The notes beneath the pieces are model-generated. The model ran no database searches, had not been told where the DNA came from, and worked only from the letters and a program-made list of their open reading frames with translations. From positions 1 to 36,152 of IMG/VR virus record IMGVR_UViG_3300032080_000014: a DNA stretch of 36,152 bases. One strand, written 5' to 3'. Every line of letters starts with the position of its first letter. Position 1 is the stretch's first letter. The stretch comes from a virus. This document shows positions 1,091-35,714 of this stretch, piece after piece. Both the position numbers and the translations under genes were made by a program.

Positions 1091-1106
1091 TGTCCAAGCT
1101 TGGACA
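1091..1106. repeat. 16-bp palindrome, canonical copy 1
   Basis: TGTCCAAGCTTGGACA, in the gap between the tail protein stop and the endolysin start, 27 bp before the endolysin ATG. Confidence 0.95.
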
Positions 1107-1126
1107 CCCGCCCCCTTTGGTTAGTG

Positions 1127-2041
1127 CTAGGACACCGTGACGGACTTGGAGAACACGGACGAGCCGCGCCTGCCCGTCAGAGTGTACGTTCCAGCCGCCG
1201 CGTAAACCTTCGTGTACGAGCCGGTTGCGGCGTAGTCGAACGTGCCGTCCCCGAAGTCGTAGAAGATCGGATCGGTGCCAGCCGGTGTCGGCGCGATAGC
1301 AACCGACAGCCCGGTGTTGGTGGTGGTCAGGCCGGTCAGCGCGGGCTTCGACGGATCGAGGACCGGGATCGCACCCGAGTACACCGCAGGCGGCGCAACT
1401 TCCACCGTCATGATGCGGCGATGATCGTTCGCCTTCATCGGCACCCGCAGGACAGCCGGGAGTCCGCCGACGAGTTCGACCGGGTACGGGCCAGCGCCCC
1501 AGCCCGAACCGTTCTTCGTCGCCATGCCAGTGACCGTGAACGTGATCGCCGCGTTCTCGATGGTGACATCACCGATCACGCCGCCGCCGAGGAACGGGGT
1601 CAGCACGTAACCGTACTGGCCCTGCGACCCGGTAGCCGCCGCCTCGGTGGTGGTCGCCCCGAGCCAGACTTCCAGCGCGAAGTTCACCGCCGTCAGGTTT
1701 ACGTCCGTGGACTCCGTGATACCAATGGCCCGGCCACCGGCATCGAGCACCACATCCTGTCCGGTCAGAATCTCGAACAGCGCGAAGTCCACTTCACAGA
1801 ACTCCGCTTCGACGCCGAACCCGTTGAACGTGGGTGTGGCTGGCTCGAAGATGCACGTCTCGCCACCGGCGTTTGGGAGGATGATCGACTCACCCTCTTC
1901 GACGTTCGTGGTGTACGAGACATTGACGTAGCCCTTAGTGGTTACAGCGCCGTTGTCTCCGTAAATCGGACGACCGTTCGCGTCAACGATTGTGGCCCTC
2001 AACCTCCGTCCCCGGAGGTAAGAGACTCTCTTGGAACGCAT
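1127..2041 (-). CDS. Probable major tail protein with C-terminal PKD/Ig-like domain
   Basis: 304 aa. The protein is beta-rich and Gly/Thr/Val-rich, with a core segment (EVDFALFEILTGQD, about residue 87-100) of the kind seen in tail-tube proteins. Residues about 225-304 form a PKD-like domain, with YDFGDGT followed by Y.. AAGTYTLT and a final beta strand; such decoration domains are common at the C-terminus of siphovirus tail-tube proteins. The ATG at 2041 overlaps the previous stop by one base (TAATG) and has GGGAG upstream. Position after capsid genes and before the endolysin supports a virion role. It could instead be a head decoration or minor tail protein. Confidence 0.6.
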   Translation of the reverse strand: MRSKRVSYLRGRRLRATIVDANGRPIYGDNGAVTTKGYVNVSYTTNVEEGESIILPNAGGETCIFEPATPTFNGFGVEAEFCEVDFALFEILTGQDVVLDAGGRAIGITESTDVNLTAVNFALEVWLGATTTEAAATGSQGQYGYVLTPFLGGGVIGDVTIENAAITFTVTGMATKNGSGWGAGPYPVELVGGLPAVLRVPMKANDHRRIMTVEVAPPAVYSGAIPVLDPSKPALTGLTTTNTGLSVAIAPTPAGTDPIFYDFGDGTFDYAATGSYTKVYAAAGTYTLTGRRGSSVFSKSVTVS

Positions 2042-2721
2042 TACTTATCTCCCTCGGTTTCGGACTGGAAAGCCTTACGATTCTTTCCCGCCTTCTCCGC
2101 GTCGAGCACCCGCTGGCGTTCCTGATCGTTGGCATTTTCGAGGTAGTCCCACACCTCATCTACGGTGTGGTCGCCCGGATCGAACTGCTCCGAGTCTGCC
2201 TCGTCATCCCCATCCTCCACTTCCGCCCGTGGCGTGGGCGTAGCGTCTGGATCGGGAGTCTCGCGCCGGGTGGCCTCGGCTTCACGCCGGGCGTTGTCAC
2301 CCTCGTTGGCTTCGCGCCGGGCCTGATTCGCGGTCCTGACATCGAGTTGCGCCTCGTCGTCCGGCTGGACGGTGGCTTCCTCCGGTGTCGGCTCGTCGCC
2401 CTCGGGGGACGCCTGCCTCTCCGCATCTTCGTTGGCTCTGCGCGTCTGCTCGTCCGCGTCCTGCGAGAGTCCGCCGACGTTCGTTGCCTTCTTCGGGTCC
2501 GTCGTCGTGCCCGGCTCTGTGGGAACCGCAGGCCGGTCAGCGCCGGTCTTGGAACCCTCGGGTGCGATCTTCGACGGGACGATGTAACCGTGGGATGTCG
2601 TGACGACCTCAGACGCATCGAGGCCAGCGGCCTCAGCGGCTTCGATCAGTTCGCGTGCTTTTGCCTCGGAACGGCCGGGAACGAAAGATTCGCCGTCGTT
2701 GAGCGGTGGGTTTACTGCCAT
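2041..2721 (-). CDS. Acidic, low-complexity protein in the head-tail gene cluster
   Basis: 226 aa. The first ~55 residues look folded (SEAKARELIEAAEAAGLDASEV, then a short strand HGYIVPSK), resembling a small helix-hairpin unit. The rest is dominated by Asp, Glu, Arg, Ala, Pro and Thr and is probably disordered, ending in a Lys/Arg/Gln-rich helix. The start has an excellent AAGGAG. It may be a head-tail linker, an internal capsid component or an assembly factor; no family is recognised. Confidence 0.55.
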   Translation of the reverse strand: MAVNPPLNDGESFVPGRSEAKARELIEAAEAAGLDASEVVTTSHGYIVPSKIAPEGSKTGADRPAVPTEPGTTTDPKKATNVGGLSQDADEQTRRANEDAERQASPEGDEPTPEEATVQPDDEAQLDVRTANQARREANEGDNARREAEATRRETPDPDATPTPRAEVEDGDDEADSEQFDPGDHTVDEVWDYLENANDQERQRVLDAEKAGKNRKAFQSETEGDK

Positions 2722-2731
2722 TTCAAACTCC

Positions 2732-5415: not shown

Positions 5416-5565
5416 CTACTGAGGATCGACGGAACCACCTTCGCGGGCCTTCGCCGCGTTGGCCTCGATCTTGGAGAAATACACCTTGGTCGAGCCGTCA
5501 GGTTTGGTGTGGACGTACGTCACTTTCTTCTCGCGTGTGCTCCCGCAGGAACCGCAAGGTGTCAT
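5416..5565 (-). CDS. Small CxxC protein between the capsid polyprotein and the major capsid gene
   Basis: 49 aa, beginning MTPCGSCGSTREKK and containing a beta-hairpin-like middle (VTYVHTKPDGSTKVYF) and a short Ala/Lys helix. The ATG at 5565 overlaps the polyprotein stop by four bases (ATGA), so translation is probably coupled. Similar tiny CxxC proteins occur at this place in many actinophage head operons, but their function is not known to me. Two Cys could help bind a metal in a dimer. Confidence 0.65.
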   Translation of the reverse strand: MTPCGSCGSTREKKVTYVHTKPDGSTKVYFSKIEANAAKAREGGSVDPQ

Positions 5566-8500
5566 GGTTGCTCCTTCTCTGTGAAGCGGGCCTTCGCCCT
5601 TTGTGCGGCCTTGGCGAGTACCTTCCCGCGTGCCTGATGTGCGCTTGCGAGCAGGGACTGTTCTTCGAGGTACGCCTTCATCTTGGCGCGGAAGTCGTCG
5701 TCGAGGATGTCGGCCCCGGTGTGCGGGATCGACAGGGCCACGACAGATTCGACGTAACCACCGGACGCGACCAGCGACGGGCGCGGGATCGGGAAGCCCG
5801 GCACGTTGACCGCGAGCGCGGCCACCATTTCGAGGTTGACCTGCCCCCGGACGATCTTCTTCCGCCAGTCACCGGAGATGGCCGACGCACGCAGAGCGTG
5901 AATGTCCTCGTCGGAGACGCCCGGCCTGATGATCCCGGCAACGGCGATGCCGTAGTCATCCTCGTAGGCGCACACATCCGCGACCGCGTAGCCGGTGTTG
6001 TCGTAGTGCGAGGCGGCGGCGCGCAGGTTCATGTGCCCGTCAGCGTGCCCGGTGCCCATCGTGATCTGCCCGACCGCGACCATGCCAGCATCCGTGAGGA
6101 CAGCGCCGGTCTGGAAGTCGCCGTAGTCGGTGAGGGAGTGTGGTGCCGTCTTGCACTCATCCTCGAACCCGATGTGGCAGGTGTCCCATGTGGCGATGTG
6201 CCCGTAGACCCTGCCGTCCTCCGTGACAGTGAACGGTGTGACCTGCTTCAGGTTCGGGTTGGTGAAGTATTCCACCGGGAGCTTCTTGGTGCCCACCGAG
6301 GCGACAAGACTTACGGCGGGTGCCATCTTCTCTTCTCCTGACATTGCTTCTGTCCTTCCTGCGGCCTGTCCGGGCCAAGCCTTCAAGGCCCGGTAGTGGA
6401 GGTTGGCGCAGAGGCCAGCCAGCCAGTCGGGGTTCTGCACGTACTTCACGAGTTGGGTCCGGCAACGGTTGAAGTCGCCGGGTGCGCCCCAGCCGATCTT
6501 CGCCGCGCCGCGACCGTCCACCCAGTAGTCCGTGATCTTCGTGGTCGGCTGTGGATGGGTGATCCAGCCGGGTCCGTCCTTGGTGTGCCGGGGGACCGGC
6601 GCGAACTCCAAGCCGTAGTCCCCTATCCGGTCAATGTTGCTCTCATCCGGTTCACCCCCCGGCACACTCTTTGCGGCGTCCGCTTTGGCCTGTTCGAGGT
6701 GCGCGTCACAGGTCGGTACGAACGCCATGCCCTCCGAGTGGAGGACGTACTTGGTGGCAGGCTCATCGCCGTACTTGCACTTCGGCGGCGTCCCGTCCTT
6801 GTTCACGCCGGGCGCGTCAGCGTCAGCGAACGCCTCCCAAACCAGAGAGGCGGCAACCTTGTCGGCCGGTTCCTCCCCGATCTGCTTGTACGCGGAACGC
6901 AGAGCGGCCTTCGCCTTCTGCTTCGCCTCGGATGGGGCGTCCACCTGATTGAAGCGTGCGGCGGCGGCGTGGACAGCGGCCCGGTTGATTGCCCCACCGG
7001 GTTCCTTGATCGGCAGTTTGCACTCCGACTTCGACTTCGGCGCTCCGGTATGCGTGTGGAGAATGCAGGATGCGTGCCACTGCTCCGGGGTGAACCGTGA
7101 CGCGGACCCGTCCCAAGGTTCCTCGGAGACGAACGTCTCAGACTGTCCAAGCTTGGACACCTCGACGAGCGGCGGCTGTTCAGCCGGTTCCTCCACATCC
7201 GACCACAGGCCAAGATCGAAGTACGCCTCAGCGAACGCGGGGATCGCGACGATGGTGGCGCTGGCAATCCTGCCCTTCGAGAAGATGACGCCCTCTTCGT
7301 TCGGCTCAGCCGCGAGTTCAGCTTGGTCTACGTCCACGGACACGCCCCGCAGGATGTTGTTGGCGCGGAGCCGGATCACCTCGTACGCCTCGGGTGAAGT
7401 GTCGAAGTGGCCCTCGGCCTTGATGAGTCCGTTGTCCCTGAAGATGCGCTCGATGCGCGCGACAGGGAACGAACCGCCGTGGCGTTCCTCGTCCCTCGGC
7501 TGGTGCTTCAGCGGCAGGGGAAGGTCGCGGTTGGTCAGCGACCCCAGCGCGAACTGGCGCTTGTCGCCGGACCACACGCCTTCCGGCGCGAGCACCCCAT
7601 GCCACGGGACTTCGATCAGGGCCTCTTCGTCGGGAACTTGCGGCGCGTCCTCGTCGATGTCGTCGATCAGTTCGGCGTCGAATGTCTCCCGCTCACCGCT
7701 GGCCGCTTCTTCTGCGGGAGGCACAGCTTCCTTGTCCTCCACGTTCGGTGTTGCAATCTCAGGCACGTCGCCTCCAAGGGGAAACTCGGTCTGGTCCGGC
7801 CCGTACCAGAGCGCGAGCCGGTCGAAGGTGATGCTGTCCTGACGGTCATCCGACTTCGGCGGTGCGTCGGCATAGCCGAGCGTCAGGTGTGGAATCCATG
7901 CCGGGAACTGCTCAACCCCGTCGTGGATGGCCCGGACCTCATCGGTTCCGAGAATCGCGCCGCGCATCGTCGCCAGTTCGGCGGCGTCAACCAAGACAAC
8001 CTCAGCCTCGTCAGCACCCAGTACGCCCTTACCGCTGACGCTCTCAGTGACCGGGCCTTCCACGGCGGCGGCGACAGACTGGATGATCTTCTTCACCGGC
8101 TCCGGGTCGAACGTGGCATCCCCGAGGAACAGGAGCGTGACGTGCGCCTGATCCTCGCTGGACACCTGCGTCGTCCAGTCGCCTTCCGCTGGCAAAGCCA
8201 CCACGACTGCGGAGGTGGAAGGTTCCCCGCCAGTCGCGGCGGCAGTCAGTGCCATCTCTGTGTGCGTCGGCTGTGCGATGCACCGGCAGTTGATCCATAC
8301 CTCGGGCGGACCAACCGGCTCTCCGGGGTAGTGCAGGTTCTCGCCCTGCACGAGGAACGTCCCGCCGAGGGGGATCGTCTGGCCCTCGACTTCCTTGTGG
8401 GCCTCCCGCACCGACGAGTCGTTCATGGTGCGCCATTCGAGGCCGACGCCCCCACCGGGATCGGAGGCGACAGCGGCTTCGGTCCCGGCATTCACTGCGG

Positions 8501-8828
8501 CGGTGGACAGCCAGCGCGTGATCGTCGCTGTCTGCTTAGCCATGTCGTCGGTGTTCTTCGTTTTCAGGAGGGCCTCGCGGATCGACCGCTCGAACTCGGC
8601 GCGCAGGTCGTCGATGATCGGGTTCCACTCGTCAATCTCGAACTTGGCTGTCTCGTCGAACACGTCAAGCGCGGCCTCGACAGCCTGATCCTCCCACCGG
8701 GCAAGACCGCGACGGATCATGGAGCCGCGCACCGCCTCGTGGATGCGTTCGTCGGATCGCTTCAGGATGTCCTTCCGCTCAGCGACAAAGTCCTCCGTCG
8801 TCATGCCGAAGCGTTCAGCGCGGATCAT
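5562..8828 (-). CDS. Capsid polyprotein: MuF domain, 2H phosphoesterase-like domain, prohead protease, long C-terminal region
   Basis: 1088 aa. Residues 1-190: MuF-like head morphogenesis domain (WRTMNDSSVREAH, then PPEVWINCRC). Residues ~205-350: a 2H phosphoesterase-like domain with the two H-x-T motifs AHVTLLFLG (H229) and IPHLTLGYA (H314). Residues ~350-405: acidic linker. Residues ~408-540: HK97-type capsid maturation protease, with candidate catalytic H442 in LKHQP and S497 in RGVSVDV. Residues ~565-680: HTHTG and a helical LPIKEPGGAINRAAV segment followed by a Lys/Ala-rich helix. Residues ~680-1088: a Cys-containing region, then the conserved-looking GHIATWDTCHIGF ... HYDNTG ... LRASAISGDWR ... 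PGFPIPRP block, and a C-terminal coiled helix. The protease should process capsid and scaffold regions. ATG 8828 was chosen for GGGAGGTGA and the ATGA overlap with the portal stop; the frame upstream of it lacks coding character. A palindrome copy lies inside at 7144. Confidence 0.8.
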   Translation of the reverse strand: MIRAERFGMTTEDFVAERKDILKRSDERIHEAVRGSMIRRGLARWEDQAVEAALDVFDETAKFEIDEWNPIIDDLRAEFERSIREALLKTKNTDDMAKQTATITRWLSTAAVNAGTEAAVASDPGGGVGLEWRTMNDSSVREAHKEVEGQTIPLGGTFLVQGENLHYPGEPVGPPEVWINCRCIAQPTHTEMALTAAATGGEPSTSAVVVALPAEGDWTTQVSSEDQAHVTLLFLGDATFDPEPVKKIIQSVAAAVEGPVTESVSGKGVLGADEAEVVLVDAAELATMRGAILGTDEVRAIHDGVEQFPAWIPHLTLGYADAPPKSDDRQDSITFDRLALWYGPDQTEFPLGGDVPEIATPNVEDKEAVPPAEEAASGERETFDAELIDDIDEDAPQVPDEEALIEVPWHGVLAPEGVWSGDKRQFALGSLTNRDLPLPLKHQPRDEERHGGSFPVARIERIFRDNGLIKAEGHFDTSPEAYEVIRLRANNILRGVSVDVDQAELAAEPNEEGVIFSKGRIASATIVAIPAFAEAYFDLGLWSDVEEPAEQPPLVEVSKLGQSETFVSEEPWDGSASRFTPEQWHASCILHTHTGAPKSKSECKLPIKEPGGAINRAAVHAAAARFNQVDAPSEAKQKAKAALRSAYKQIGEEPADKVAASLVWEAFADADAPGVNKDGTPPKCKYGDEPATKYVLHSEGMAFVPTCDAHLEQAKADAAKSVPGGEPDESNIDRIGDYGLEFAPVPRHTKDGPGWITHPQPTTKITDYWVDGRGAAKIGWGAPGDFNRCRTQLVKYVQNPDWLAGLCANLHYRALKAWPGQAAGRTEAMSGEEKMAPAVSLVASVGTKKLPVEYFTNPNLKQVTPFTVTEDGRVYGHIATWDTCHIGFEDECKTAPHSLTDYGDFQTGAVLTDAGMVAVGQITMGTGHADGHMNLRAAASHYDNTGYAVADVCAYEDDYGIAVAGIIRPGVSDEDIHALRASAISGDWRKKIVRGQVNLEMVAALAVNVPGFPIPRPSLVASGGYVESVVALSIPHTGADILDDDFRAKMKAYLEEQSLLASAHQARGKVLAKAAQRAKARFTEKEQP
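7144..7159. repeat. 16-bp palindrome, canonical copy 2 (inside coding sequence)
   Basis: Lies in the polyprotein gene just after the protease domain and encodes VSKLGQ in a linker; no start codon with a ribosome binding site follows it. Confidence 0.95.
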
Positions 8829-13174: not shown

Positions 13175-13436
13175 GATTCACCTCCGGGTGTCCAAGCTTG
13201 GACACTTTGCCCCTGTGCTCTTTGCGCCATTTCCACCAGTTGTCGGCGTACACCCAACCGTAGGCGAGAGCAGAAAGATAAAAGCCCCACTGGCCGGTGA
13301 CGTAGGCGTACGCGATCCACAGGAACTGCGCGATCATGCCGACGAACCAGCCCCAGTAGTTCTTGCGCCCGGCGATCATCAGCCCGGCGACACCAACTGC
13401 GGCCAGCAGGACGGACCACCACCACGGCACCATCAC
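13158..13436 (-). CDS. Trp-rich membrane protein, PnuC-like pattern
   Basis: 92 aa from GTG 13436, which overlaps the previous stop (GTGA). Three hydrophobic segments (WWSVLLAAVGVAGLMIAG; GWFVGMIAQFLWIAYAY; GFYLSALAYGWVYA) followed by NWWKWRKEHRG. The Trp/Gln/Tyr arrangement resembles short PnuC-like transporter fragments common in phages, but it is much shorter than a full transporter. Its C-terminus is encoded by a palindrome copy (VSKLGH) and overlaps the terminase start. Confidence 0.55.
   Translation of the reverse strand: MMVPWWWSVLLAAVGVAGLMIAGRKNYWGWFVGMIAQFLWIAYAYVTGQWGFYLSALAYGWVYADNWWKWRKEHRGKVSKLGHPEVNHDESR
13189..13204. repeat. 16-bp palindrome, canonical copy 3
   Basis: Embedded in the 3' end of the Trp-rich membrane protein gene, 14 bp upstream of the large terminase ATG. 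Confidence 0.95.
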
Positions 13437-13642
13437 TCAAACTCTTCCGGCCACTCCGCGCGGAACTTCAGGTGCTTCTGGTTCGGGAAGTATGGAGGGT
13501 CGCCCTCGACCGTGTACGCGACAACCTCGACCATCGCGTCCTCGGGCACCTTCTCCCTGAACATCTCCATGAGCCGGTCGAACACGCCGCGCGGCATGGG
13601 GGTCGGCGGCACTTCCATCTCGTGCCATCTCGTGATTTTCAT
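13433..13642 (-). CDS. Small hypothetical protein
   Basis: 69 aa, MKITRWHEMEVPPTP at the start and an acidic C-terminus. One predicted amphipathic helix (FDRLMEMFREKVPEDA) is followed by two strands. The start is set by GAAGGA upstream and the ATGA-type overlap with the preceding gene. No family recognised. Confidence 0.6.
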   Translation of the reverse strand: MKITRWHEMEVPPTPMPRGVFDRLMEMFREKVPEDAMVEVVAYTVEGDPPYFPNQKHLKFRAEWPEEFE

Positions 13643-14037
13643 TCGTCTACGTCCTTCAGTCCGGTGATGACCCAAGGCCCGTGGCCCTTGCCGTCGTCGT
13701 GGGTGAGCTTCGGGTGGCCGGGTCCGCCGATGGAGCCGTAGTTCGCCGGTTGGGCGACGAACCGTGTGACCTGCTCGTACGGCAGGCCGAGGTCGTGGGC
13801 GATCATGGCGCAGATCGCGCGCCGGGCATAGCCGGACAGGGAGATATTGCGGCGCGCGGCGCACTCGTCCATCCACACGCGAAGCTGATCCTCGTAAAAC
13901 AGGGTCTGTGAGGACGGCCGTTCCTGCGCCCGCGTCGAGCGGTTGCGCCGGTCCTTCACCCGCTTGATGGCTTCCTCTTCCCAGCCGGGCTTCTCCCGGT
14001 CGGACCAGCCCGCAAGATTACCCCGTGGATTCGGCAT
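13639..14037 (-). CDS. Putative ribbon-helix-helix-type small protein
   Basis: 132 aa from ATG 14037 (GGGGA eight bases upstream). The middle reads QTLFYEDQLRVWMDECAARRNISLSGYARRAICAMIAHDLGL, with a beta strand followed by two helices as in ribbon-helix-helix or MobC-like DNA-binding folds. The N-terminus is strongly basic and the C-terminus Gly/His-rich. Position beside the terminase small subunit may indicate a DNA-binding role in packaging or control, but this is inference. Confidence 0.5.
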   Translation of the reverse strand: MPNPRGNLAGWSDREKPGWEEEAIKRVKDRRNRSTRAQERPSSQTLFYEDQLRVWMDECAARRNISLSGYARRAICAMIAHDLGLPYEQVTRFVAQPANYGSIGGPGHPKLTHDDGKGHGPWVITGLKDVDE

Positions 14038-14590
14038 CGCTGTCCCCAATCACTTCGCCTTCGATGATGTCCGGGTCCGCGTTCGCGATGTCCGCTTCCT
14101 CGGCTTCCATATCGGCACCGGCCAGTTGCCGGACCCTTCCGACGTACTCGCTGATGCGTTCGTCCGTGGCTGTGATCTGGAATTGCTGTGGGGCGTCCAC
14201 GCCGTAGAGCCTGCCGATCCTGTCCACCAGCGCGAGCGCCCTCGCGTTGTACGCGAGATGCTCCGGGTCTTCGGGGTCGATGGCTCTCAGCATGACCGAC
14301 TGCAACAGCTTGTTGAGGCGCTTCTCCGTGACGACGCGCATCTTGTCCCGGTCGAGGGATGAGTTCGCTGATGTGGCGAGCACCCGCTCGACGGCCTGCC
14401 TGCACCGGAACGCCGACGAGTAGCCGGTGATGCGCGCCGCCTTCGACCAACTGGCCCCGTACAGGATCAGCGCGAGCGCCGCTTCCGCCTTCTGCTCACC
14501 TTTGAGATTCAGGTCGGCGTTGAGGTTTTCGTCGTCGTTGATGGCTTCGAGGCCCTTGGCCCCGGTGATGCCATCATCCTCAATGGCCAT
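14018..14590 (-). CDS. terS: Terminase small subunit (putative)
   Basis: 190 aa. Would recognise the phage packaging site and present it to the large subunit. A helix-turn-helix-like region (QKAEAALALILYGASWSKAARITGYSSAFRCRQAVERVL, about 32-72) is followed by a long helical oligomerisation region (about 80-120) and an acidic tail. This layout, length and the position two genes ahead of the large subunit fit. The ATG overlaps the stop of the ParB-like gene (TAATG). Assignment rests on pattern and context, not on catalytic residues. Confidence 0.65.
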   Translation of the reverse strand: MAIEDDGITGAKGLEAINDDENLNADLNLKGEQKAEAALALILYGASWSKAARITGYSSAFRCRQAVERVLATSANSSLDRDKMRVVTEKRLNKLLQSVMLRAIDPEDPEHLAYNARALALVDRIGRLYGVDAPQQFQITATDERISEYVGRVRQLAGADMEAEEADIANADPDIIEGEVIGDSDAESTG

Positions 14591-15183
14591 TACAGGTTCA
14601 CCGCTTTCACGTTGTCGTAGACCTGCGCGAGGTCAGCCGCCACCTCGTCACGCCTGTCAGGGCTGTCGAACGTGAGGACTACTTGGAAGATTTGCAGGGG
14701 TGTCTCGTCCATCGGCCTGCCGAAATGGTGGCCGATCTGCTCGTCATCCTCGGCGGCAAGCTTCGCGAGAAGATGGTCGAGTTTCTCTTCGGTAAAGCCT
14801 GTTCCCCGGAGGCCGGCGTTGGACTCCCGGAGCGCGAGCAACAGGCGGGCTTCCTGACGTTCGTCCATGCGGGCCATGCGCGCCGATTCGTTGTCCACGA
14901 TCATGTACGCGGTCGGCCCGTACTGGTCGCCTTCCTCGTAGTCGGCAAACACCAGCGGCCCCCGAGTCTCCCCGAGGGCCAGCAGAGCGTCGTAGCGTGT
15001 GTGCCCGGCGATGATTTCCCGCGTGCGCCGGTTGCAGGTAATCACGCCGTTGAAGCCGTGACGAAGGATGGACTCGATCACCACATCCACATCACCGTTA
15101 TTTGGATTCGCTGGGTTTGGGCGCACGCTTTCCAGCGGGGCGAGAAGGGGTTCCAGTTCCTTCGCGAACCTGACGAGCTTCAT
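14590..15183 (-). CDS. ParB-like nuclease domain protein
   Basis: 197 aa from ATG 15183 with GGAAGGG upstream. Residues about 15-110 match the ParB/Srx-type N-terminal domain: PLESVRPNPANPNNGD, then a helix, then REIIAGHTRYDALLALG (the G-H-T-R box that binds nucleotide in ParB) and a later acidic strand. A helical segment (ARMARMDERQEARLLLALRESN) follows. No clear helix-turn-helix or dimer domain of a full chromosomal ParB is seen. Phage proteins of this kind often sit next to terminases and may be nucleases or CTP switches; the activity here is unknown. Confidence 0.75.
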   Translation of the reverse strand: MKLVRFAKELEPLLAPLESVRPNPANPNNGDVDVVIESILRHGFNGVITCNRRTREIIAGHTRYDALLALGETRGPLVFADYEEGDQYGPTAYMIVDNESARMARMDERQEARLLLALRESNAGLRGTGFTEEKLDHLLAKLAAEDDEQIGHHFGRPMDETPLQIFQVVLTFDSPDRRDEVAADLAQVYDNVKAVNL

Positions 15184-16168: not shown

Positions 16169-16361
16169 TGTCCTGCTTGATGATGTCCAGCGGCCGGGTG
16201 TGGCCGTTGTCAGCGGAGTGGGCATGGGGTTTCCTTTCGCCTGCGGCTAAATCTTCGAGGGCTTTGATGCGCCTGTCCTGAAGGAACGAGACGACGATCA
16301 GGGATACGAGGGCGAGTGAGAATAGGGCGAAGGCGGCGACTGCCTGCGTGTGCGGTTCCAC
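16107..16361 (-). CDS. Small membrane protein
   Basis: 84 aa from GTG 16361 with GAAAGGA 7 bases upstream (GTG 16385 is an alternative). One transmembrane helix (AAFALFSLALVSLIVVSFL) followed by a coiled DRRIKALEDLA segment and a polar, basic tail. It overlaps both neighbours in other frames. Could be a holin-class or spanin-like single-span protein; nothing decides this. Confidence 0.5.
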   Translation of the reverse strand: MEPHTQAVAAFALFSLALVSLIVVSFLQDRRIKALEDLAAGERKPHAHSADNGHTRPLDIIKQDSGSSPATRRELRRHRKVDGQ

Positions 16362-19325: not shown

Positions 19326-19341
19326 TGTCCAAGCTTGGACA
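19326..19341. repeat. 16-bp palindrome, canonical copy 6
   Basis: 24 bp before the ATG at 19366. Confidence 0.95.
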
Positions 19342-20154: not shown

Positions 20155-20170
20155 TGTCCAAGCTTGGACA
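20155..20170. repeat. 16-bp palindrome, canonical copy 8
   Basis: 19 bp before the ATG at 20190; GACTACC follows at 20182. Confidence 0.95.
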
Positions 20171-20385: not shown

Positions 20386-20401
20386 TGTCCAAGCTTGGAC
20401 A
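20386..20401. repeat. 16-bp palindrome, canonical copy 9
   Basis: 43 bp before the ATG at 20445, the longest distance of the leader copies; GACTACC follows at 20417. Confidence 0.95.
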
Positions 20402-20444: not shown

Positions 20445-21071
20445 ATGCACAAGCACGTAGCACCCCGCCGTCTCCCGAACCCGATCATCGTCGTCGCGGG
20501 ACTGGCACTGATATTCGCGGTCATCATCGCCGGGCTGGCGGTCATCACCACGAAACGCCCGGACACCGCGCCGCCGAAGATCAGTGCGCCAGTCTCGGAA
20601 CCCATCACGGCGGACCCGTCCGCGATGCTCACCCTAGACCGGGTATCGGTGGCCACGTCACCGGCCCCGGCCCCCGAACCCACGGCACCTGTCCAAGATT
20701 GGACACCGGAGGAACCGCAGATACCGGAGATGCCGGTAGGCGCACCCGAGGTCGGCGTCCCGGTATCACTCACGGAACCGGTCTGCGAAGAGGATATGCC
20801 TTGCTGGGACTGCGCGACGATGGGGAATCTAGTCTGCGGAACCATTGATGACAGCGCGGAGGCATGGGCGGCATGGGACGCGAACAACGGGGCAAGCCTG
20901 CTCAATATGGACCCGGCCCGGCCGTTCCGGGTGGACTACATGGCATCCACACCTGAGATGCCCCAGAACATGACAGCCGACGACGTGGCGGTAATGGATG
21001 CGGGCGGTACGTGGTACGTATTCCACGCCAGCTACACTGACGCTCCCGAAGAGGCGTGCGACCTCGCCTAG
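20445..21071 (+). CDS. Single-span membrane protein with extracytoplasmic domain
   Basis: 208 aa. A basic N-terminus (HKHVAPRRLPNP) precedes one hydrophobic helix (IIVVAGLALIFAVIIAGLAVI, about 14-34), so the C-terminal domain should lie outside the membrane. A long Pro/Thr/Ser/Glu linker (35-110), part of which is encoded by a variant palindrome (VQDWTP), leads to a Cys-containing domain (CEEDMPCWDCATMGNLVC ... C near the end) rich in Asp, Trp and Met. Possible superinfection exclusion or envelope-modifying protein; inference only. GAAGG precedes the start. Confidence 0.65.
   Translation: MHKHVAPRRLPNPIIVVAGLALIFAVIIAGLAVITTKRPDTAPPKISAPVSEPITADPSAMLTLDRVSVATSPAPAPEPTAPVQDWTPEEPQIPEMPVGAPEVGVPVSLTEPVCEEDMPCWDCATMGNLVCGTIDDSAEAWAAWDANNGASLLNMDPARPFRVDYMASTPEMPQNMTADDVAVMDAGGTWYVFHASYTDAPEEACDLA
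20690..20705. repeat. 16-bp palindrome variant (centre GA), copy 10, in coding sequence
   Basis: TGTCCAAGATTGGACA in the linker of the membrane protein at 20445-21071; not near a start. Confidence 0.9.
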
Positions 21072-21117: not shown

Positions 21118-21133
21118 TGTCCAAGCTTGGACA
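21118..21133. repeat. 16-bp palindrome, canonical copy 11
   Basis: 26 bp before the ATG at 21160. Confidence 0.95.
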
Positions 21134-21525: not shown

Positions 21526-21541
21526 TGTCCAAGCTTGGACA
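21526..21541. repeat. 16-bp palindrome, canonical copy 12
   Basis: 19 bp before the ATG at 21561; GACTACC follows at 21544. Confidence 0.95.
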
Positions 21542-21813: not shown

Positions 21814-21829
21814 TGTCCAAGGTTGGACA
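21814..21829. repeat. 16-bp palindrome variant (centre GG), copy 13
   Basis: TGTCCAAGGTTGGACA immediately after the stop of the acidic gene and 23 bp before the -35 of the next promoter, so it precedes a promoter and not a start codon. Confidence 0.9.
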
Positions 21830-21967: not shown

Positions 21968-21983
21968 TGTCCAAGCTTGGACA
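21968..21983. repeat. 16-bp palindrome, canonical copy 14
   Basis: 20 bp before the ATG at 22004, downstream of P1 and its hairpin. Confidence 0.95.
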
Positions 21984-22330: not shown

Positions 22331-22346
22331 TGTCCAAGCTTGGACA
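22331..22346. repeat. 16-bp palindrome, canonical copy 15
   Basis: 23 bp before the ATG at 22370. Confidence 0.95.
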
Positions 22347-22663: not shown

Positions 22664-22880
22664 GGACTTCGTGTGGTGGGTGGAAGAGTTCAAGGACAGC
22701 CGGAAACTCCCCACCCACTACCGGCAGACACCCACCACGACAGCGTGCGGGCTGAACATGCTGATCGACGCGCCCAAAGTAACCGAATCCGATGGGGAAG
22801 TGGACTGTAACCACTGCTCCAACCTCCGCAGTAAGTACCTGTCCAAGCTTGGACACTCACCAGAAGGAACCGCATCATGA
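22650..22880 (+). CDS. Small Cys-containing hypothetical protein
   Basis: 76 aa. TACGLNML and DCNHCSNL provide Cys and His spaced like a zinc site, and WWVEEFKDSRKLPTHYRQ precedes it. The C-terminus LSKLGHSPEG is encoded by a palindrome copy that serves as the leader of the next gene. GGAG lies ahead of ATG 22650. Confidence 0.6.
   Translation: MPLSEDFVWWVEEFKDSRKLPTHYRQTPTTTACGLNMLIDAPKVTESDGEVDCNHCSNLRSKYLSKLGHSPEGTAS
22840..22855. repeat. 16-bp palindrome, canonical copy 16
   Basis: Embedded in the 3' end of the gene at 22650-22880, 21 bp before the ATG at 22877. Confidence 0.95.
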
Positions 22881-23246: not shown

Positions 23247-23975
23247 ATGCCCATCAAGATCATTCCCGAGTGCCGTTACTGTGGCACCGCCGTCGAACCG
23301 ACCGAACCTATGGGGGCGTGGATCCACACCGGCCTGTCGATCTGGTGCCCCGGCGATCCGTACCGGACCCAAACTGCCACGCCCATCGTGCGGGTCGAGC
23401 CACTGTCCAAGCTTGGACAGCCCGAACAGAACAGCCCCGAATACTGGGCGCAACTGCAAGACCGGGCACCGCACAACAACGAACCGGAACGTGGAATCTA
23501 CTGGGATGAGACGCTCGAAGGCCCCTTCGGGATTCACTCGGCGCGGATTATCGACGAGGACGAGGGCGGTGTGATCGCGTACTGCCACACCGACAGCGCG
23601 AACCGTATCGTCGAGGCCCTGCGTGCCCAGCGGGAAGCCGAGGTGTCCAAGCTTGGACAGTCAGAGGGCGGGGTCATCGAGGTCGAGGGCACCCTGACAC
23701 TCGATGATCTGGCGAAGCTGAACGGCGACCGGCACAGGATCAATGAGCAGGGGTACCCGATCTACCCTGCCGGGACACCCATCGAGGAAGTCAGTATCCG
23801 GGACCGTAGCCAGAAGATGATCTTCAAGTGCGACGAACACCCGGACGTGGAGTGGGCCAGCAAAGACCCGTTCGTGAGCCGGTGGTTCGGCAACCCGGCG
23901 CAAGGCTCGATCTGCCCCTGCGAATGGAGCAACTTCAAGCTCAGCCATGACTATTCACCAACGAGAAACGACTAG
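23247..23975 (+). CDS. Multi-part Cys-containing protein with two palindrome-encoded linkers
   Basis: 242 aa. Residues 1-50: zinc-ribbon-like (ECRYCGTAVEPTEP ... H ... WCPGDP). A palindrome-encoded LSKLGQ linker at about 54 is followed by a domain of about 75 aa (PEYWAQLQDRA ... HSARIIDEDEGGVIAYCHTDSANRIVEALRAQ), a second palindrome-encoded VSKLGQ linker at about 134, and a third part with FKCDEHPDVEW and SICPCEW that could bind metal. The two identical DNA elements sit exactly between apparent domains. GAGG precedes the ATG. Confidence 0.6.
   Translation: MPIKIIPECRYCGTAVEPTEPMGAWIHTGLSIWCPGDPYRTQTATPIVRVEPLSKLGQPEQNSPEYWAQLQDRAPHNNEPERGIYWDETLEGPFGIHSARIIDEDEGGVIAYCHTDSANRIVEALRAQREAEVSKLGQSEGGVIEVEGTLTLDDLAKLNGDRHRINEQGYPIYPAGTPIEEVSIRDRSQKMIFKCDEHPDVEWASKDPFVSRWFGNPAQGSICPCEWSNFKLSHDYSPTRND
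23404..23419. repeat. 16-bp palindrome, canonical copy 17 (in coding sequence)
   Basis: First inter-domain linker of the gene at 23247-23975; encodes SKLGQ. Confidence 0.95.
23644..23659. repeat. 16-bp palindrome, canonical copy 18 (in coding sequence)
   Basis: Second inter-domain linker of the same gene, 240 bp after copy 17 and in the same reading frame. Confidence 0.95.
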
Positions 23976-24370: not shown

Positions 24371-24386
24371 TGTCCAAGCTTGGACA
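24371..24386. repeat. 16-bp palindrome, canonical copy 19
   Basis: Starts on the base after the preceding stop codon and ends 24 bp before the ATG at 24411; GACTACC at 24389. Confidence 0.95.
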
Positions 24387-24750: not shown

Positions 24751-24995
24751 TGGCCAAGCCACCGACGTTGCACTATCGCGAACCCGGTGAGATACGGACA
24801 GCGTGCGGCAAGCCACAGGACAAGACGCGAACCACAAACTTCACCGTCGATGTGACTTGCCGCGCCTGCCGTGACACCTACCCTTTCCAGACTCAGCACG
24901 CCGAGTTCATGGAAGTAGTGGATGCACTCTCGTATCCAAAAGAAGAACACCCAGCACTGTCCAATCTTGGACACCAAACGAAAGACACCAAATGA
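24750..24995 (+). CDS. Small Cys-containing hypothetical protein
   Basis: 81 aa. LHYREPGEIRTACGKPQDKTRTTNF and VTCRACRDTY: a C ... CxxC arrangement seen in many short phage proteins that probably bind zinc. The C-terminus (LSNLGH) is encoded by a palindrome variant that serves the next gene. Confidence 0.6.
   Translation: MAKPPTLHYREPGEIRTACGKPQDKTRTTNFTVDVTCRACRDTYPFQTQHAEFMEVVDALSYPKEEHPALSNLGHQTKDTK
24958..24973. repeat. 16-bp palindrome variant (centre TC), copy 20
   Basis: TGTCCAATCTTGGACA, embedded in the 3' end of the upstream gene, 18 bp before the lipoprotein ATG at 24992. Confidence 0.9.
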
Positions 24996-25823: not shown

Positions 25824-25852
25824 TTGACATTGGGCTTGGAATCTGATAGAAT
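25824..25852 (+). promoter_or_regulatory. Promoter P2
   Basis: TTGACA, 17-bp spacer, TAGAAT: the best sigma-70-type promoter in the window. Located directly after the stop of the helix-turn-helix gene. Confidence 0.75.
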
Positions 25853-25903: not shown

Positions 25904-25919
25904 TGTCCAAGCTTGGACA
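25904..25919. repeat. 16-bp palindrome, canonical copy 21
   Basis: Directly follows the P2 hairpin and ends 26 bp before the ATG at 25946; GACTACC at 25924. Confidence 0.95.
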
Positions 25920-26231: not shown

Positions 26232-26247
26232 TGTCCAAGCTTGGACA
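26232..26247. repeat. 16-bp palindrome, canonical copy 22
   Basis: 20 bp before the GTG at 26268. Confidence 0.95.
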
Positions 26248-26757: not shown

Positions 26758-27044
26758 CCGAGCCGCTTTACCGCACCGAAGAGTACAGCGAGGAACACCA
26801 GTCGGTGACGATCAGCGCGGACTGGGACTACGCCTCCGAGGCGTGCCGCAGTTTCATCGCCATGATGCAGGGGCACGGCATGTCACCGGCAGAGATAAGC
26901 AAGTACGTACACAAGGCGAAGGCTGACTTCGAGGCCGGAGCCAACATGATTCAAGTCCCGGTGGGCAAGGGCTTCACCGTATCAATGGAACGACTGTCCA
27001 ATCTTGGACACCCGGCAGAGAGGCAAGACAGTGTTGACGCTTGA
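26754..27044 (+). CDS. Small hypothetical protein
   Basis: 96 aa, ATGA overlap. Helical middle (DYASEACRSFIAMMQGHGMSPAEISKYVHKAKADFEAGAN); the C-terminus LSNLGH comes from a palindrome variant that serves the next gene. Confidence 0.6.
   Translation: MTEPLYRTEEYSEEHQSVTISADWDYASEACRSFIAMMQGHGMSPAEISKYVHKAKADFEAGANMIQVPVGKGFTVSMERLSNLGHPAERQDSVDA
26995..27010. repeat. 16-bp palindrome variant (centre TC), copy 23
   Basis: TGTCCAATCTTGGACA embedded in the 3' end of the upstream gene, 20 bp before the GTG at 27031. Confidence 0.9.
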
Positions 27045-27940: not shown

Positions 27941-29278
27941 ATGACTACCGATACAGAAATCCTCGCCCCGACTACCGAAGTGACAGTCAATGAACCCACG
28001 CAGTACGAGTTCCCGGAGGGCTGGACGTTCCCCTCCTACGATCCGCGAGGGGACAGCGAGATGACAGGGGCGCACGTCGTCTACGTCAACACGGTCAGGG
28101 CTGGCAACCGTGACCACTGGGTCGGCACGTTCCGCCACGCTGAGGCCGGTCGCGGGGGCGACGGCTGGACAGTGAGCGGTCGCCGGGTCTACGGCGCTGT
28201 CGTCAACCCGATGCCGTACAACGGCAGGCACTACCTTGTATTCGGCCGGTTCGTCGTGCGGTACAACGACGAGTACAACACCGAACTGCGGCACCATTCC
28301 GCTCACCCTTACTCGATCATCTGCGCGGCAGACGGTACGCCGTGGTACTTCCCGAACGACAGTCTCGCTTCCCTCGAAGGCTCGGATTACATCACGCTCA
28401 ACCATGAGGTTGTGTCCAATCTTGGCCAGCGGGCCGAGGTGGCGGATGAACCGGCCGGTCCTGCATTGTGGGAGGATGCGCGGAACGCCATCACGTTCGG
28501 CTATGCCCGGCAGGAAGAGGACGGCACTGTCCTGCTGAACCCTGACCCGATTCCGGGTGATGTCTACATCGTCTGGGACAGCAGGCTTGAAGCGGAAGAG
28601 TCGGGCCACACCTCCTACGTCTGTGTCTATGAGGGCGGCGGTCCTATTGAGCAGGCGTTTGCCCCTTCCGGGTACTGGTACAGGTACTACGACCAGTCGG
28701 ACTGGACTTCGAGCGGGGTATTCTCGACGATCCCCGACAAGTGGGTGAAGCTTGGGTTCCGCTCGGACTACAGCGAACCGGTGAACACGTACACGGCAGA
28801 CTTTGAGCGCTCGCTTCGCACGTCGAAGAAAGAGTTGGAGACGTTCAACACGGAGACGAACAAGCTTGCACTGAGGCACTCGTGGTGCAGTACATACGAG
28901 AGCATCATCCAGCCGCTCGGCATGAAGTCCCGCTGGCATGGCTGGTGGTCCGTCGAGGTGCAGGCCAAGACGTGCATCACCCGTGAAAGCCTCACCGGGT
29001 ACACGGCGCGGGACATCCTCGGGAACTTGGGCATCAGCGGCAGGGAGATAACGAACCTCTCGCTCGAAGCCACGTTCACCTTCTCGGTCCCCGGCGTGCA
29101 GGCTGACACCGAGGAAGAGGCGAAGGCTCTGGTGACACCGGAGATGATGACTGCGGCGCTGGCTACGGTCAGTCCTGATACGAGCTTTGCCGACATGACT
29201 GACGTGGAAATCCTCGGCGTGAATGAGGACCGGGACGCGGCGGTCAGGGCGGCGAACCGGATGAACGACGACGAGTAG
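27941..29278 (+). CDS. Largest unassigned early protein
   Basis: 445 aa. Unusually rich in Tyr and Trp. Three parts: residues 10-150 (WTFPSYDPRGDSEMTGAHVVYVNTV ... YLVFGRFVVRYNDEY), 155-290 (an acidic/aromatic region with GDVYIVWDSRLEAEESG and a degenerate palindrome-encoded VSNLGQ) and 300-445 (helical DFERSLRTSKKELETFNTETNKLALRH, then a beta strand region and acidic end). No catalytic motif recognised. GGAAGAAAACC precedes the ATG. It ends a transcription unit, as a hairpin follows. Confidence 0.65.
   Translation: MTTDTEILAPTTEVTVNEPTQYEFPEGWTFPSYDPRGDSEMTGAHVVYVNTVRAGNRDHWVGTFRHAEAGRGGDGWTVSGRRVYGAVVNPMPYNGRHYLVFGRFVVRYNDEYNTELRHHSAHPYSIICAADGTPWYFPNDSLASLEGSDYITLNHEVVSNLGQRAEVADEPAGPALWEDARNAITFGYARQEEDGTVLLNPDPIPGDVYIVWDSRLEAEESGHTSYVCVYEGGGPIEQAFAPSGYWYRYYDQSDWTSSGVFSTIPDKWVKLGFRSDYSEPVNTYTADFERSLRTSKKELETFNTETNKLALRHSWCSTYESIIQPLGMKSRWHGWWSVEVQAKTCITRESLTGYTARDILGNLGISGREITNLSLEATFTFSVPGVQADTEEEAKALVTPEMMTAALATVSPDTSFADMTDVEILGVNEDRDAAVRAANRMNDDE
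28413..28428. repeat. Degenerate 16-bp palindrome, copy 24, in coding sequence
   Basis: TGTCCAATCTTGGCCA: centre TC and one change in the right arm; encodes VSNLGQ in a linker. Confidence 0.7.
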
Positions 29279-29336: not shown

Positions 29337-29352
29337 TGTCCAAGATTGGACA
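29337..29352. repeat. 16-bp palindrome variant (centre GA), copy 25
   Basis: TGTCCAAGATTGGACA, 37 bp before the ATG at 29390. Confidence 0.9.
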
Positions 29353-29932: not shown

Positions 29933-29974
29933 CCCCTGCCATGTCCGAGTGTCCAAGCTTGGACATGGCAGGGG
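29933..29974 (+). promoter_or_regulatory. 14-bp stem-loop that contains the palindrome
   Basis: CCCCTGCCATGTCC pairs perfectly with GGACATGGCAGGGG. The loop and right arm contain palindrome copy 26, whose own hairpin would compete for the same GGACA bases. The ribosome binding site TAGGAG follows 10 bases later. Confidence 0.6.
29950..29965. repeat. 16-bp palindrome, canonical copy 26
   Basis: Inside the long stem-loop, 30 bp before the TTG at 29996. Confidence 0.95.
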
Positions 29975-29995
29975 CACCACAACTAGGAGTAAACG

Positions 29996-30995: not shown

Positions 30996-31011
30996 TGTCC
31001 AAGCTTGGACA
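30996..31011. repeat. 16-bp palindrome, canonical copy 27
   Basis: 16 bp before the ATG at 31028. Confidence 0.95.
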
Positions 31012-31725: not shown

Positions 31726-32081
31726 CGGCCATGTCTGTCCAAGGTTGGACACCGATTCCGAACTGGATTCTCCGCGACGAGACGCTGAGCGGGCACGCCA
31801 AGCTTGTCTATCTGTCCCTCAACTCCCGCCTCGGCCTGCCGGTAATCAACCCCTCGCACGCCACTATCGCCAGCGAAGCAAGTTGCTCGCCCGCCTCGGT
31901 GAAACGCGCCCTCGCAGAACTGCGGGACCGGCAGATGATCGAGTGGACACAGCAGACAAACGGCAAGGGCGGACAGGTCAGCAATGTCTACCGCGTGCTG
32001 ATCGAACCACCCGTCCGCACCCCCCAGTTCACAATGGACCACCCCCCGGTTCATGGTGGACCACCCCCCAGTTCACAGTGA
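31722..32081 (+). CDS. Helix-turn-helix replication initiator, N-terminal part
   Basis: 119 aa from GTG 31722 (ATG 31731 is possible). GWTPIPNWILRDETLSGHAKLVYLSLNSR followed by a winged helix-turn-helix (HATIASEASCSPASVKRALAELRDRQMIEW) and a wing strand: the usual N-terminal DNA-binding half of phage replication initiators of the replisome-organiser type. The Pro-rich C-terminus is made by a 22-bp tandem repeat and stops abruptly at 32081. Removal of one repeat unit would join it in frame to the next gene. A palindrome variant encodes SVQGWTP near the N-terminus. Confidence 0.65.
   Translation: MTAMSVQGWTPIPNWILRDETLSGHAKLVYLSLNSRLGLPVINPSHATIASEASCSPASVKRALAELRDRQMIEWTQQTNGKGGQVSNVYRVLIEPPVRTPQFTMDHPPVHGGPPPSSQ
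31736..31751. repeat. 16-bp palindrome variant (centre GG), copy 28
   Basis: TGTCCAAGGTTGGACA just inside the initiator coding region, contributing codons for a conserved-looking Trp. Confidence 0.9.
32033..32076 (+). repeat. 22-bp tandem repeat, two units plus a partial third
   Basis: Units at 32033-32054 and 32055-32076 share TGGACCACCCCCC then GGTTCA or AGTTCA; a diverged partial unit precedes them. Because 22 is not a multiple of 3, unit number sets the reading frame. Confidence 0.85.
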
Positions 32082-32514: not shown

Positions 32515-32530
32515 TGTCCAAGCTTGGACA
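32515..32530. repeat. 16-bp palindrome, canonical copy 29
   Basis: Starts on the base after the preceding stop codon; ends 15 bp before the primase/helicase ATG at 32546. Confidence 0.95.
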
Positions 32531-34156: not shown

Positions 34157-34172
34157 TGTCCAAGCTTGGACA
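34157..34172. repeat. 16-bp palindrome, canonical copy 30
   Basis: 18 bp before the ATG at 34191; here GACTACC lies before the palindrome (34146). Confidence 0.95.
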
Positions 34173-34190: not shown

Positions 34191-34574
34191 ATGACCAAGG
34201 CAATCATGATTCCGTGGGACGCGGTCGAACCTATCGTCGAAGTCGAGCTTCGCGCCGACCCATTCGAGCAGATGGAGGGCCTGATTTTCGGGCCGGTCGC
34301 CAAGGGCGCAACCCGGCGCAACCTCGGGTCGGCCACTATGGGCCAGGGCGTGCAGTGCTTCCACGACGACGAGGGCATGTATAACCAGCCGTTCAACGTG
34401 AACGTCAGGGCGATGAAACTCTGGGCGCACGTCTCAGGCCGGAAGCTCTCCGATTTCGTACAGCCGCTGTGGGGGAACTTCGTGGTCTACGGCTACGACG
34501 AGGCCGGGGAGTCCACTGACGTTCCCGCCATCGTCACCGAGTTCTTCGCGGAGGATGGTGTGACCAATGCCTGA
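34191..34574 (+). CDS. DUF3846-like hypothetical protein
   Basis: 127 aa. IMIPWDAVEPIVEVELRADPFEQMEGLIFG, then FNVNVRAMKLWAHVSGRKLSDFVQPLWGNFVVYG and ESTDVP near the end resemble the layout of the DUF3846 family (conserved N/R and a final strand G..VV.G). Function of that family unknown to me. AAGGGCAAG upstream. Confidence 0.55.
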   Translation: MTKAIMIPWDAVEPIVEVELRADPFEQMEGLIFGPVAKGATRRNLGSATMGQGVQCFHDDEGMYNQPFNVNVRAMKLWAHVSGRKLSDFVQPLWGNFVVYGYDEAGESTDVPAIVTEFFAEDGVTNA

Positions 34575-34962
34575 GACGCGAGCACAGAAGATCGCCCGGC
34601 TGAAGGCAATGATTGACGCCGACGAGCAAGCCGCCGCACGCACCATAGAGCGGGCCGAGAAGCGGCGCGAGATGCTGTTGACGCTGGCTGAGCGCCCTGC
34701 CGAACCGACCGGCTACAACATGTTCATGAGCAGGGTGAAGTTCAAGGGGACGAGCATCATCTACACGTTCCTGTTCCTGCGGACCCCGGCTGGCTACTAC
34801 AGCACCGGGTCTGGCAAGAACTCGGTCTTTCGTACGTGGGACATCCTGTGCGACTGGCTCGACTCGGATGACATCGAATCGCACACCGGACTGGAAGCCA
34901 TCGTCGAAACGGGTGAGACGTACTACCCGGAACGGGAGCGCGGGGGAGGCTTCTCGCTATGA
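34567..34962 (+). CDS. Hypothetical protein with N-terminal coiled coil
   Basis: 131 aa, overlapping the previous gene by 8 bases. RAQKIARLKAMIDADEQAAARTIERAEKRREMLLTLAE forms a long charged helix; the rest is beta/aromatic (SRVKFKGTSIIYTFLFLRTPAGYYSTGSG). No family recognised. Confidence 0.6.
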   Translation: MPETRAQKIARLKAMIDADEQAAARTIERAEKRREMLLTLAERPAEPTGYNMFMSRVKFKGTSIIYTFLFLRTPAGYYSTGSGKNSVFRTWDILCDWLDSDDIESHTGLEAIVETGETYYPERERGGGFSL

Positions 34963-35435
34963 GCACCGAGGCACCGGGCTTCATTCCCTACGGGAAGGAC
35001 GGATCGGGCCACGCCGGTAACGCGACATCGCGGGAACGGCAGGCCCGTGAGGACGCGCTCGGCAAGACCGCCGTCCGTCAGCGCGAGGCTTACCGGGCCA
35101 TCATCGAGGCTGACGGGCATGGTGTCACGACCGGCGAACTGGAACTCAGGTACGGCTGGCACCACGGCCAGTCGTCGTCGGCTCTAACGCACCTTCACCG
35201 GGCAGGGCACGTCGCCCGGCTGAAGGAGCAACGCAACGGGCAGGAGATTTACATCTGCCCCGAGCATGTCGGTGACAGGCCGCTGTCGCCGTACAACCCC
35301 CGCGTCCCGCAGGGCCGCAGGCATCCCCGCGATCTGTCCGACGCGGTGGTGCTCGAAGCCATGCAGGGCGCGGGCATCCCGAACATCGGCACCAACTTCA
35401 TCAAGGCGCGCAAGTTCCTTGACCTACTTCCCTAG
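34959..35435 (+). CDS. Winged-helix-like protein
   Basis: 158 aa, ATGA overlap. RQREAYRAIIEADGHGVTTGELELRYGWHHGQSSSALTHLHRAGHVARLKEQRNGQEIYI has the pattern of a MarR-like winged helix-turn-helix followed by a wing. C-terminal segment basic. May bind DNA, possibly as a regulator of late early-region genes. Confidence 0.6.
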   Translation: MSTEAPGFIPYGKDGSGHAGNATSRERQAREDALGKTAVRQREAYRAIIEADGHGVTTGELELRYGWHHGQSSSALTHLHRAGHVARLKEQRNGQEIYICPEHVGDRPLSPYNPRVPQGRRHPRDLSDAVVLEAMQGAGIPNIGTNFIKARKFLDLLP

Positions 35436-35444
35436 GAGACGGAA

Positions 35445-35714
35445 ATGGCAGAAGAGATTCCCAGAATGGATGGCCGCGAGGTTCACGGCGCGGACTTTGT
35501 GAACGTGGCGTTCGCGCCGGGCACCATCTACGAGGAGTTCAAGGAATGGCTGGCTACGGTCGGCCTCGAACTGACGCCCCCGATGAAGTTCAGTGAGGAC
35601 GACGAGGACGAGGTGCCGACCCAGTTCGTGATCGTGACGAACGAGACGGCGGCGCGCATCTGGGGCGACTCACCCGAGGCTCAGGTGTCCAAGCTTGGAC
35701 AGGAGGAATCGTGA
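35445..35714 (+). CDS. Small acidic hypothetical protein
   Basis: 89 aa, Asp/Glu-rich middle (KFSEDDEDEVPTQ). The C-terminus VSKLGQ is from a palindrome copy that sits 9 bp before the next start. GGAGACGGAA precedes the ATG. Confidence 0.6.
   Translation: MAEEIPRMDGREVHGADFVNVAFAPGTIYEEFKEWLATVGLELTPPMKFSEDDEDEVPTQFVIVTNETAARIWGDSPEAQVSKLGQEES
35686..35701. repeat. 16-bp palindrome, canonical copy 31
   Basis: Embedded in the 3' end of the upstream gene; the downstream GTG at 35711 is only 9 bp away, so its ribosome binding site AGGAGG overlaps the right edge of the palindrome. Confidence 0.95.

Follow-up and report, generated by a model that had tools for sequence, protein, structure and literature searches.

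The DNA analysed here, a 36,152-bp fragment of the IMG/VR virus record IMGVR_UViG_3300032080_000014 (hereafter the window), carries a dispersed 16-bp palindrome, TGTCCAAGCTTGGACA. Its leftward half encodes structural and lysis functions: endolysin, major tail protein, major capsid protein, protease, portal and terminase. Part of a rightward early half is also present, with genes for a single-stranded DNA-binding protein (SSB), a helix-turn-helix (HTH) replication-initiation-like protein and a primase/helicase. The nearest annotated relatives are the Arthrobacter phages BruhMoment, MellowYellow, Beagle, Odyssey395, AWGoat and SilentRX, with 72–78% DNA identity in the terminase and capsid genes. 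Start codons were taken from a simple, purpose-made gene caller.

At up to two mismatches the palindrome occurs 31 times, against 0.12 expected from dinucleotide shuffles, the same number that a preliminary description of this DNA had given. A scan at up to three mismatches also returned 31 sites, which span positions 1091 to 35701. Matching is all-or-none: 22 copies are perfect, seven have one mismatch, two have two, and none has three or four. Copies differ almost solely at their two central bases. The half-site TGTCCAAG occurs 27 times in the window, always as part of a palindrome.

The element had been described as marking the starts of gene cassettes. The link to start codons is borne out: 18 of the 27 rightward sites lie 0–45 bp ahead of the next start, compared with a mean of 2.5 at random (p ≤ 5e-5), and six begin 0–3 bp past a stop codon, where 0.22 would be expected by chance. 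Among the four leftward copies, one is 27 bp ahead of the endolysin and another 14 bp ahead of the large terminase, as proposed. About ten palindromes, however, lie deep within genes, several of them in one frame (V/L-S-K/N-x-G-Q), so the cassette-start label covers only part of the pattern, and the statement that the element is usually missing inside cassettes holds loosely. A motif-only BLAST search of phage records gave no match, the word being too short for BLAST; an Rfam scan found no structured RNA family and a tRNA scan no tRNA. The palindrome at 29950 shares bases with a longer inverted repeat at 29934–29975, CCCCTGCCATGTCC ... GGACATGGCAGGGG, and the two hairpins would be mutually exclusive.

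Ten related phages were examined, nine of Arthrobacter and one of Curtobacterium, and in every one a de novo search revealed dispersed palindromes of other sequences, about 12–44 per genome. BruhMoment, AWGoat, SilentRX and Tank carry GGGTCGG-N4-CCGACCC; Odyssey395, MellowYellow, Pureglobe5 and Beagle carry GCCGGT-N2-ACCGGC; Ranunculus has GCCGGA-N2-TCCGGC; and Curtobacterium phage Sunfish (L187, 25000–65152) has 12 copies of GTCTAGC-N-GCTAGAC, with its odd-length centre. The window's GTCCRA core was absent from the five of these relatives that were scanned whole. It is present outside this set: L075, whose terminase is 89% identical to the window's, has the same palindrome directly before that gene, and G021, a further member of the window lineage, has 10 copies.

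The palindromes often stand at homologous positions. About 30 bp before the endolysin, the window, BruhMoment, AWGoat and SilentRX each have their own type, as do the window, BruhMoment and AWGoat in the linker of the capsid maturation protease, and positions upstream of the same early genes are shared as well. When orthologues were scored for upstream sites, the window and Ranunculus both had one in eight cases, the window only in one, Ranunculus only in none and neither in four (p = 0.007); the same counts were 5/1/0/9 for the window and AWGoat (p = 0.002) and 8/1/5/35 for Odyssey395 and Ranunculus (p = 2e-5), whose half-sites differ by one base throughout, the three genome pairs not all being independent. 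Not every site is kept, since Odyssey395 and Ranunculus have neither the endolysin site nor the protease-linker site. Judged from the sequences, then, the relatives keep the positions of the sites while rewriting the palindrome itself. The preliminary description had made conservation in related genomes its own test; it holds for position and fails for sequence in the annotated relatives. The window's protease gene (5562–8828, - strand) combines a Mu F-like region with one resembling 2'-5' RNA ligases (PF13563, E = 8e-5). Adjoining its palindrome is an insert absent from BruhMoment.

The candidate for a protein that reads these sites is the product of gene 1, the first rightward early gene. 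It matched a hidden Markov model (HMM) of Arthrobacter-phage terminal genes, built with the window left out, at E = 4e-9, and its positional counterparts are genes 114 of BruhMoment, 123 of Odyssey395, 104 of AWGoat, 102 of SilentRX, 105 of Tank and 110 of Ranunculus. Subtypes of this first gene track palindrome type, one being found in the GGGTCGG phages and another in the GCCGGW phages. A single-sequence structure model of low confidence (predicted local distance difference test, pLDDT, 52) places helices at residues 58–143 and 174–226 with a linker at 147–174. Pfam gave only a sub-threshold HTH hint (HTH_64, E = 0.066) and PHROGs a weak match to phrog_1133. Close relatives of gene 1 were not found in IMG/VR, where an alignment-based query returned one locus only.

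Scanning IMG/VR for TGTCCAA-N2-TTGGACA uncovered further phages with many copies; a control palindrome gave 60 single matches and one double. Most of the multi-copy phages are of the marine HMO-2011 type, which is unrelated to the window's lineage; examples are the Roseobacter phages CRP-1 and CRP-345. The first early gene of these phages shares the layout of gene 1: a model with pLDDT 76 shows a helical domain at 14–127, a disordered linker at 128–158 and a C-terminal helical hairpin, and the linker holds the palindrome-encoded sequence SNVGQS. A protein-only search with this gene found 80 loci, every one of which carries at least one GTCCAA-N2-TTGGAC or GTCCGA-N2-TCGGAC. At the level of whole genomes, first gene and dispersed palindrome are both present in CRP-1, CRP-345 and HMO-2011, the last with the variant AGTCCG-N4-CGGACT and a protein, gp74, that the HMM matches at E = 1.4e-12. 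Neither the first gene nor a GTCCRA palindrome was found in the whole genomes of CRP-603, CRP-2, CRP-207, HTVC033P and CRP-738, nor any other dispersed palindrome in the early region examined. Among viral structure models the best match to the HMO-type protein is S4S2E1, which we take as HMO-2011 gp74 from its length of 205 aa. In L173 and L174 (both G037), TGTCCAACGTTGGACA is repeated several times, mostly within genes and sometimes overlapping ATG, and may thus represent another class of element.

Palindrome and protein also change in step in the HMO-type phages. The one-base shift from GTCCAA to GTCCGA pairs with Thr113 to Ser (10 of 10, against 1 of 68), a residue in the predicted last helix of the N-terminal domain. 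On a tree built from residues 1–94, palindrome type and residue 113 each change seven times, the two changes coinciding 5–7 times, and in well-supported independent pairs they differ in the same direction in four to five of five and in the opposite direction in none (p ~0.06). Asparagine 137 to aspartate also tracks palindrome type, because the palindrome itself encodes it, and N137D was rejected as a specificity residue.

Promoter-like sequences were found with part of the sites. Of 85 start-linked sites in the HMO-type phages, 37 are preceded by a promoter-like pair, against 19 in shuffles, and at 21 of these 37 the -10 box ends 29–33 bp before the palindrome core, a spacing that would place the palindrome near the beginning of the transcript. 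Outside its core the HMO-type element is asymmetric and oriented with transcription (GAAAC before, CTTT after); its polarity may therefore be important, as it is in L5 (PMC9283540). In L172, L088, L213 and L227, many first-cassette promoters read TTGANN-N16/17-TATAAC followed by AT, about 30 bp before the palindrome; GTTATATAAC in these promoters is itself palindromic and may be a second regulatory site. The window has one strong sigma-70-like promoter ahead of the site at 25904 (Table 1), and most of its other sites have no promoter-like sequence nearby. A promoter at every window site was rejected, -10-like hexamers being no commoner than in the control.

Sequence analysis has thus yielded the sites, their link to starts, their positional conservation and, in the HMO-type phages, their co-occurrence and co-variation with a protein. 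We suggest, with a probability of about 0.62, that all 31 palindromes belong to a single phage regulon as its sites and are bound by a phage-encoded dimeric protein, most likely the gene 1 product. The preliminary description had raised the idea of an operator, which the analysis supports, as it does the start linkage. Binding, dimerisation, the direction of the effect and the choice of gene 1 as the window's binder are what we infer from these patterns. The gene 1 product (19366–20049) would bind the palindromes as a dimer; sitting between a stop codon or 5' untranslated region and the next ribosome-binding site, it would probably hinder RNA polymerase from entering the following cassette, and early transcription would be damped stepwise as the protein accumulates. 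Repression or road-block seems preferable to activation. Operators downstream of promoters, with further sites within operons, are consistent with a mode of action like that of a road-block or a stoperator. With copies both upstream of and within its own gene, the protein would regulate itself.

Several observations weigh against this proposal. The five supported pairs reach only p ~0.06, and it is possible that recombination in the early region carried the gene and nearby sites together. HMO-type and Arthrobacter-type first genes have no detectable homology (HHalign probability 3%), so what co-variation suggests for one lineage is carried over to the window by analogy; by position, layout and self-embedded site, gene 1 would take the binder's role. 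The structure model of gene 1 is poor, and that of the HMO-type protein found no convincing match among PDB folds. Three TGTCCAA phages (G001, G005 and G021) lack a first-gene homologue in the parts examined. The transcription-oriented HMO-type flanks would also suit a role in RNA. In G001, an otherwise unrelated phage, two palindromes stand 11 bp apart (L169:6483–6525) ahead of the first early gene, whose product has no homology to the candidate regulators.

Table 1 Dispersed palindromes, candidate regulator gene and predicted promoter in the window
Feature	Positions	Strand	Remarks
Palindrome, 27 bp before endolysin start (1063, - strand)	1091–1106		BruhMoment, AWGoat, SilentRX: own palindrome at same place
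Palindrome within capsid maturation protease linker (V-S-K-L-G-Q)	7144–7159		BruhMoment, AWGoat: theirs in homologous linker
Palindrome, 14 bp before terminase large subunit start (13174, - strand)	13189–13204		Also before TerL in L075
Palindrome at codons 5–10 of gene 16298–16951 (- strand)	16923–16938		
Imperfect palindrome (2 mismatches), divergent intergenic region	19047–19062		
Palindrome, 24 bp before gene 1 start	19326–19341		
First rightward early gene (gene 1; 227 aa), encoding a candidate palindrome-binding protein with a helical N-domain, a linker and a C-terminal helical hairpin	19366–20049	+	HMM, position, low-confidence model
Palindrome in gene 1 linker, frame V-S-K-V-G-Q	19820–19835		
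Palindrome, 19 bp before start 20190	20155–20170		
Palindrome, 1 bp past stop, 43 bp before start 20445	20386–20401		
Palindrome (1 mismatch) within gene 20445–21071	20690–20705		
Palindrome, 26 bp before start 21160	21118–21133		
Palindrome, 1 bp past stop, 19 bp before start 21561	21526–21541		
Palindrome (1 mismatch), 1 bp past stop, no near start	21814–21829		
Palindrome, 20 bp before start 22004	21968–21983		
Palindrome, 23 bp before start 22370	22331–22346		
Palindrome, 21 bp before start 22877	22840–22855		
Palindrome within gene 23247–23975 (L-S-K-L-G-Q)	23404–23419		
Palindrome within gene 23247–23975 (V-S-K-L-G-Q)	23644–23659		
Palindrome directly past stop, 24 bp before start 24411	24371–24386		
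Palindrome (1 mismatch), 18 bp before start 24992	24958–24973		
Sigma-70-like promoter TTGACA-17-TAGAAT, extended -10, upstream of palindrome 25904	25824–25852	+	11/12 matches
Palindrome, 26 bp before start 25946, ~45 nt downstream of expected transcription start	25904–25919		
Palindrome, 1 bp past stop, 20 bp before start 26268	26232–26247		
Palindrome (1 mismatch), 20 bp before start 27031	26995–27010		
Palindrome (2 mismatches) within gene 27941–29278	28413–28428		
Palindrome (1 mismatch), 37 bp before start 29390	29337–29352		
Palindrome, 75 bp before start 30041	29950–29965		
Palindrome, 16 bp before start 31028	30996–31011		
Palindrome (1 mismatch) at codons 2–7 of HTH replication-initiation-like gene 31731–32081	31736–31751		
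Palindrome directly past stop, 15 bp before primase/helicase start 32546	32515–32530		
Palindrome, 18 bp before start 34191	34157–34172		
Palindrome at end of gene 35445–35714, 9 bp before start 35711	35686–35701		

Could the palindrome act in the transcript rather than in DNA? A hairpin beside the ribosome-binding site, alone or protein-bound, might set translation or mRNA processing, as the preliminary description had also considered. Sites do fall between the stop codon and the Shine-Dalgarno sequence, the flanks of the HMO-type element are conserved as well as oriented, and the predicted hairpin has a 6-bp stem, a 4-nt loop and -6.5 kcal/mol (-22.8 for the GGGTCGG type). This explains less of the data, given the many mid-gene copies, including the conserved ones in the protease linker, and the protein-linked change. 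In the sense strand of the HMO-type element, moreover, C and A usually occupy the outermost pair, so that pairing is lost there, and the arms are strictly constant within a genome, without compensatory variation among sites; we consider an RNA element unlikely. A slightly slimmer chance attaches to immunity operators, that is, sites serving the lysogeny repressor of a temperate phage, as in phiC31 or L5. The layout is that of the phiC31 conserved inverted repeats (CIRs) and of cluster A stoperators (PMC6550527, PMC9283540), and several HMO-2011-type phages encode an integrase. However, none is annotated in the examined regions of the Arthrobacter relatives, Galaxy alone among 46 Arthrobacter phages has one (PMC5513430), and a search of 84,980 bacterial genomes did not turn up the HMO-type first gene. 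The window itself covers only 36 kb of its genome.

The sites might also be bound by a host protein or another phage protein, for regulation, DNA organisation or partition. The window offers a ParB-like gene (14590–15183), a homologue annotated as ribbon-helix-helix (13639–14037) and the HTH gene (31731–32081), and the occurrence of one palindrome in phages from two bacterial phyla could be a sign of a shared host factor. If the binder came from the host, it would remain unexplained why related phages on one host, Arthrobacter globiformis, have different palindromes. As for the HTH gene, its matches are to replication initiators, and it has a site of its own within it; altogether we find a different binder improbable. 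Least credible, and very much so, is that the palindromes are patches of homology for cassette swapping with no regulatory partner. Sites are often found precisely in the gap from one stop to the following start, and phage early genes are mosaic, but keeping homologous positions while rewriting the sequence destroys homology across phages, and in the HMO-type phages the sequence follows the protein.

The Arthrobacter relatives appear lytic, unlike the phiC31 and L5 immunity systems (PMC5513430). We give even odds to the broader proposal that dispersed-operator regulons based on uncharacterised first-early-gene proteins operate in lytic tailed phages whose hosts differ widely, with one palindrome type per phage at five to 30 or more homologous places, in several lineages also inside the regulator's linker, rewritten genome-wide when specificity shifts, and with TGTCCAA-N2-TTGGACA arising independently in actinobacterial and alphaproteobacterial phages. 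That the phages of two bacterial phyla share this palindrome could be convergence, the comparison here being with one control pattern. Dispersed operators have so far been known from temperate phages, where they serve immunity; a conserved layer of them in apparently lytic Arthrobacter-type and abundant marine HMO-2011-type phages points to an unstudied form of early-gene timing. The analysis names a candidate regulator, with PHROG 32919 (function unknown) among the families concerned, and provides a natural series of matched protein–operator pairs. These bear on how a regulator can change specificity when some 30 sites must change too.

The literature searched on Arthrobacter or HMO-2011 phages with palindromes, which took in few subscription papers, held no description of these elements, and an earlier description may exist. 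Known systems share some of their features. Cluster A stoperators (L5, Bxb1, TipsytheTRex) are likewise many dispersed sites in short intergenic spaces, and there too site motif and regulator diverge together (PMC6550527). They are 13-bp asymmetric sequences in temperate phages, bound in a required orientation by a monomer with two DNA-binding domains (PMC9283540), whereas most of the window's copies (22 of 31) are perfect dyads. Binding at a stoperator halts elongation. The start-associated sequences (SAS) of cluster K are 11–19 copies of the 13-bp asymmetric GGGATAGGAGCCC directly upstream of starts in the same gene families, with 17-bp inverted repeats in the extended form (PMC3203893). The window resembles them in that orthologues keep their upstream sites. 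It differs in sequence, in a gap of about 15–45 bp where SAS adjoin the start codon, and in having a third of its copies inside genes. parS, too, is a palindrome of 16 bp whose binding protein is encoded by a phage or plasmid, and the window has its ParB-like gene. Unlike the window's sites, parS sites are few, clustered and not start-linked.

The closest system, which the preliminary survey of two dispersed actinophage element types had missed, is that of the phiC31 palindromes. The CIRs are bound by the phage repressor, which shuts off lytic genes. They share with the window's 31 copies a dispersed, near-identical palindrome of about 14–18 bp that is mostly intergenic: we counted 15 exact copies in phiC31 (17 with one mismatch allowed). 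The repressor gene c (L345:19274–21325) has its own copy inside, at 19774, just as gene 1 does. On the other side, the core, TACTCACGTGAGTA, is unrelated to the half-site of the window, phiC31 is temperate and has fewer copies, and its repressor gave no significant match to the gene 1 HMMs or to gene 1 itself. The window system is therefore not a member of the CIR family, its sequence being different and the repressor not detectably homologous, yet of the known systems it is the phiC31 CIRs that it works most like.

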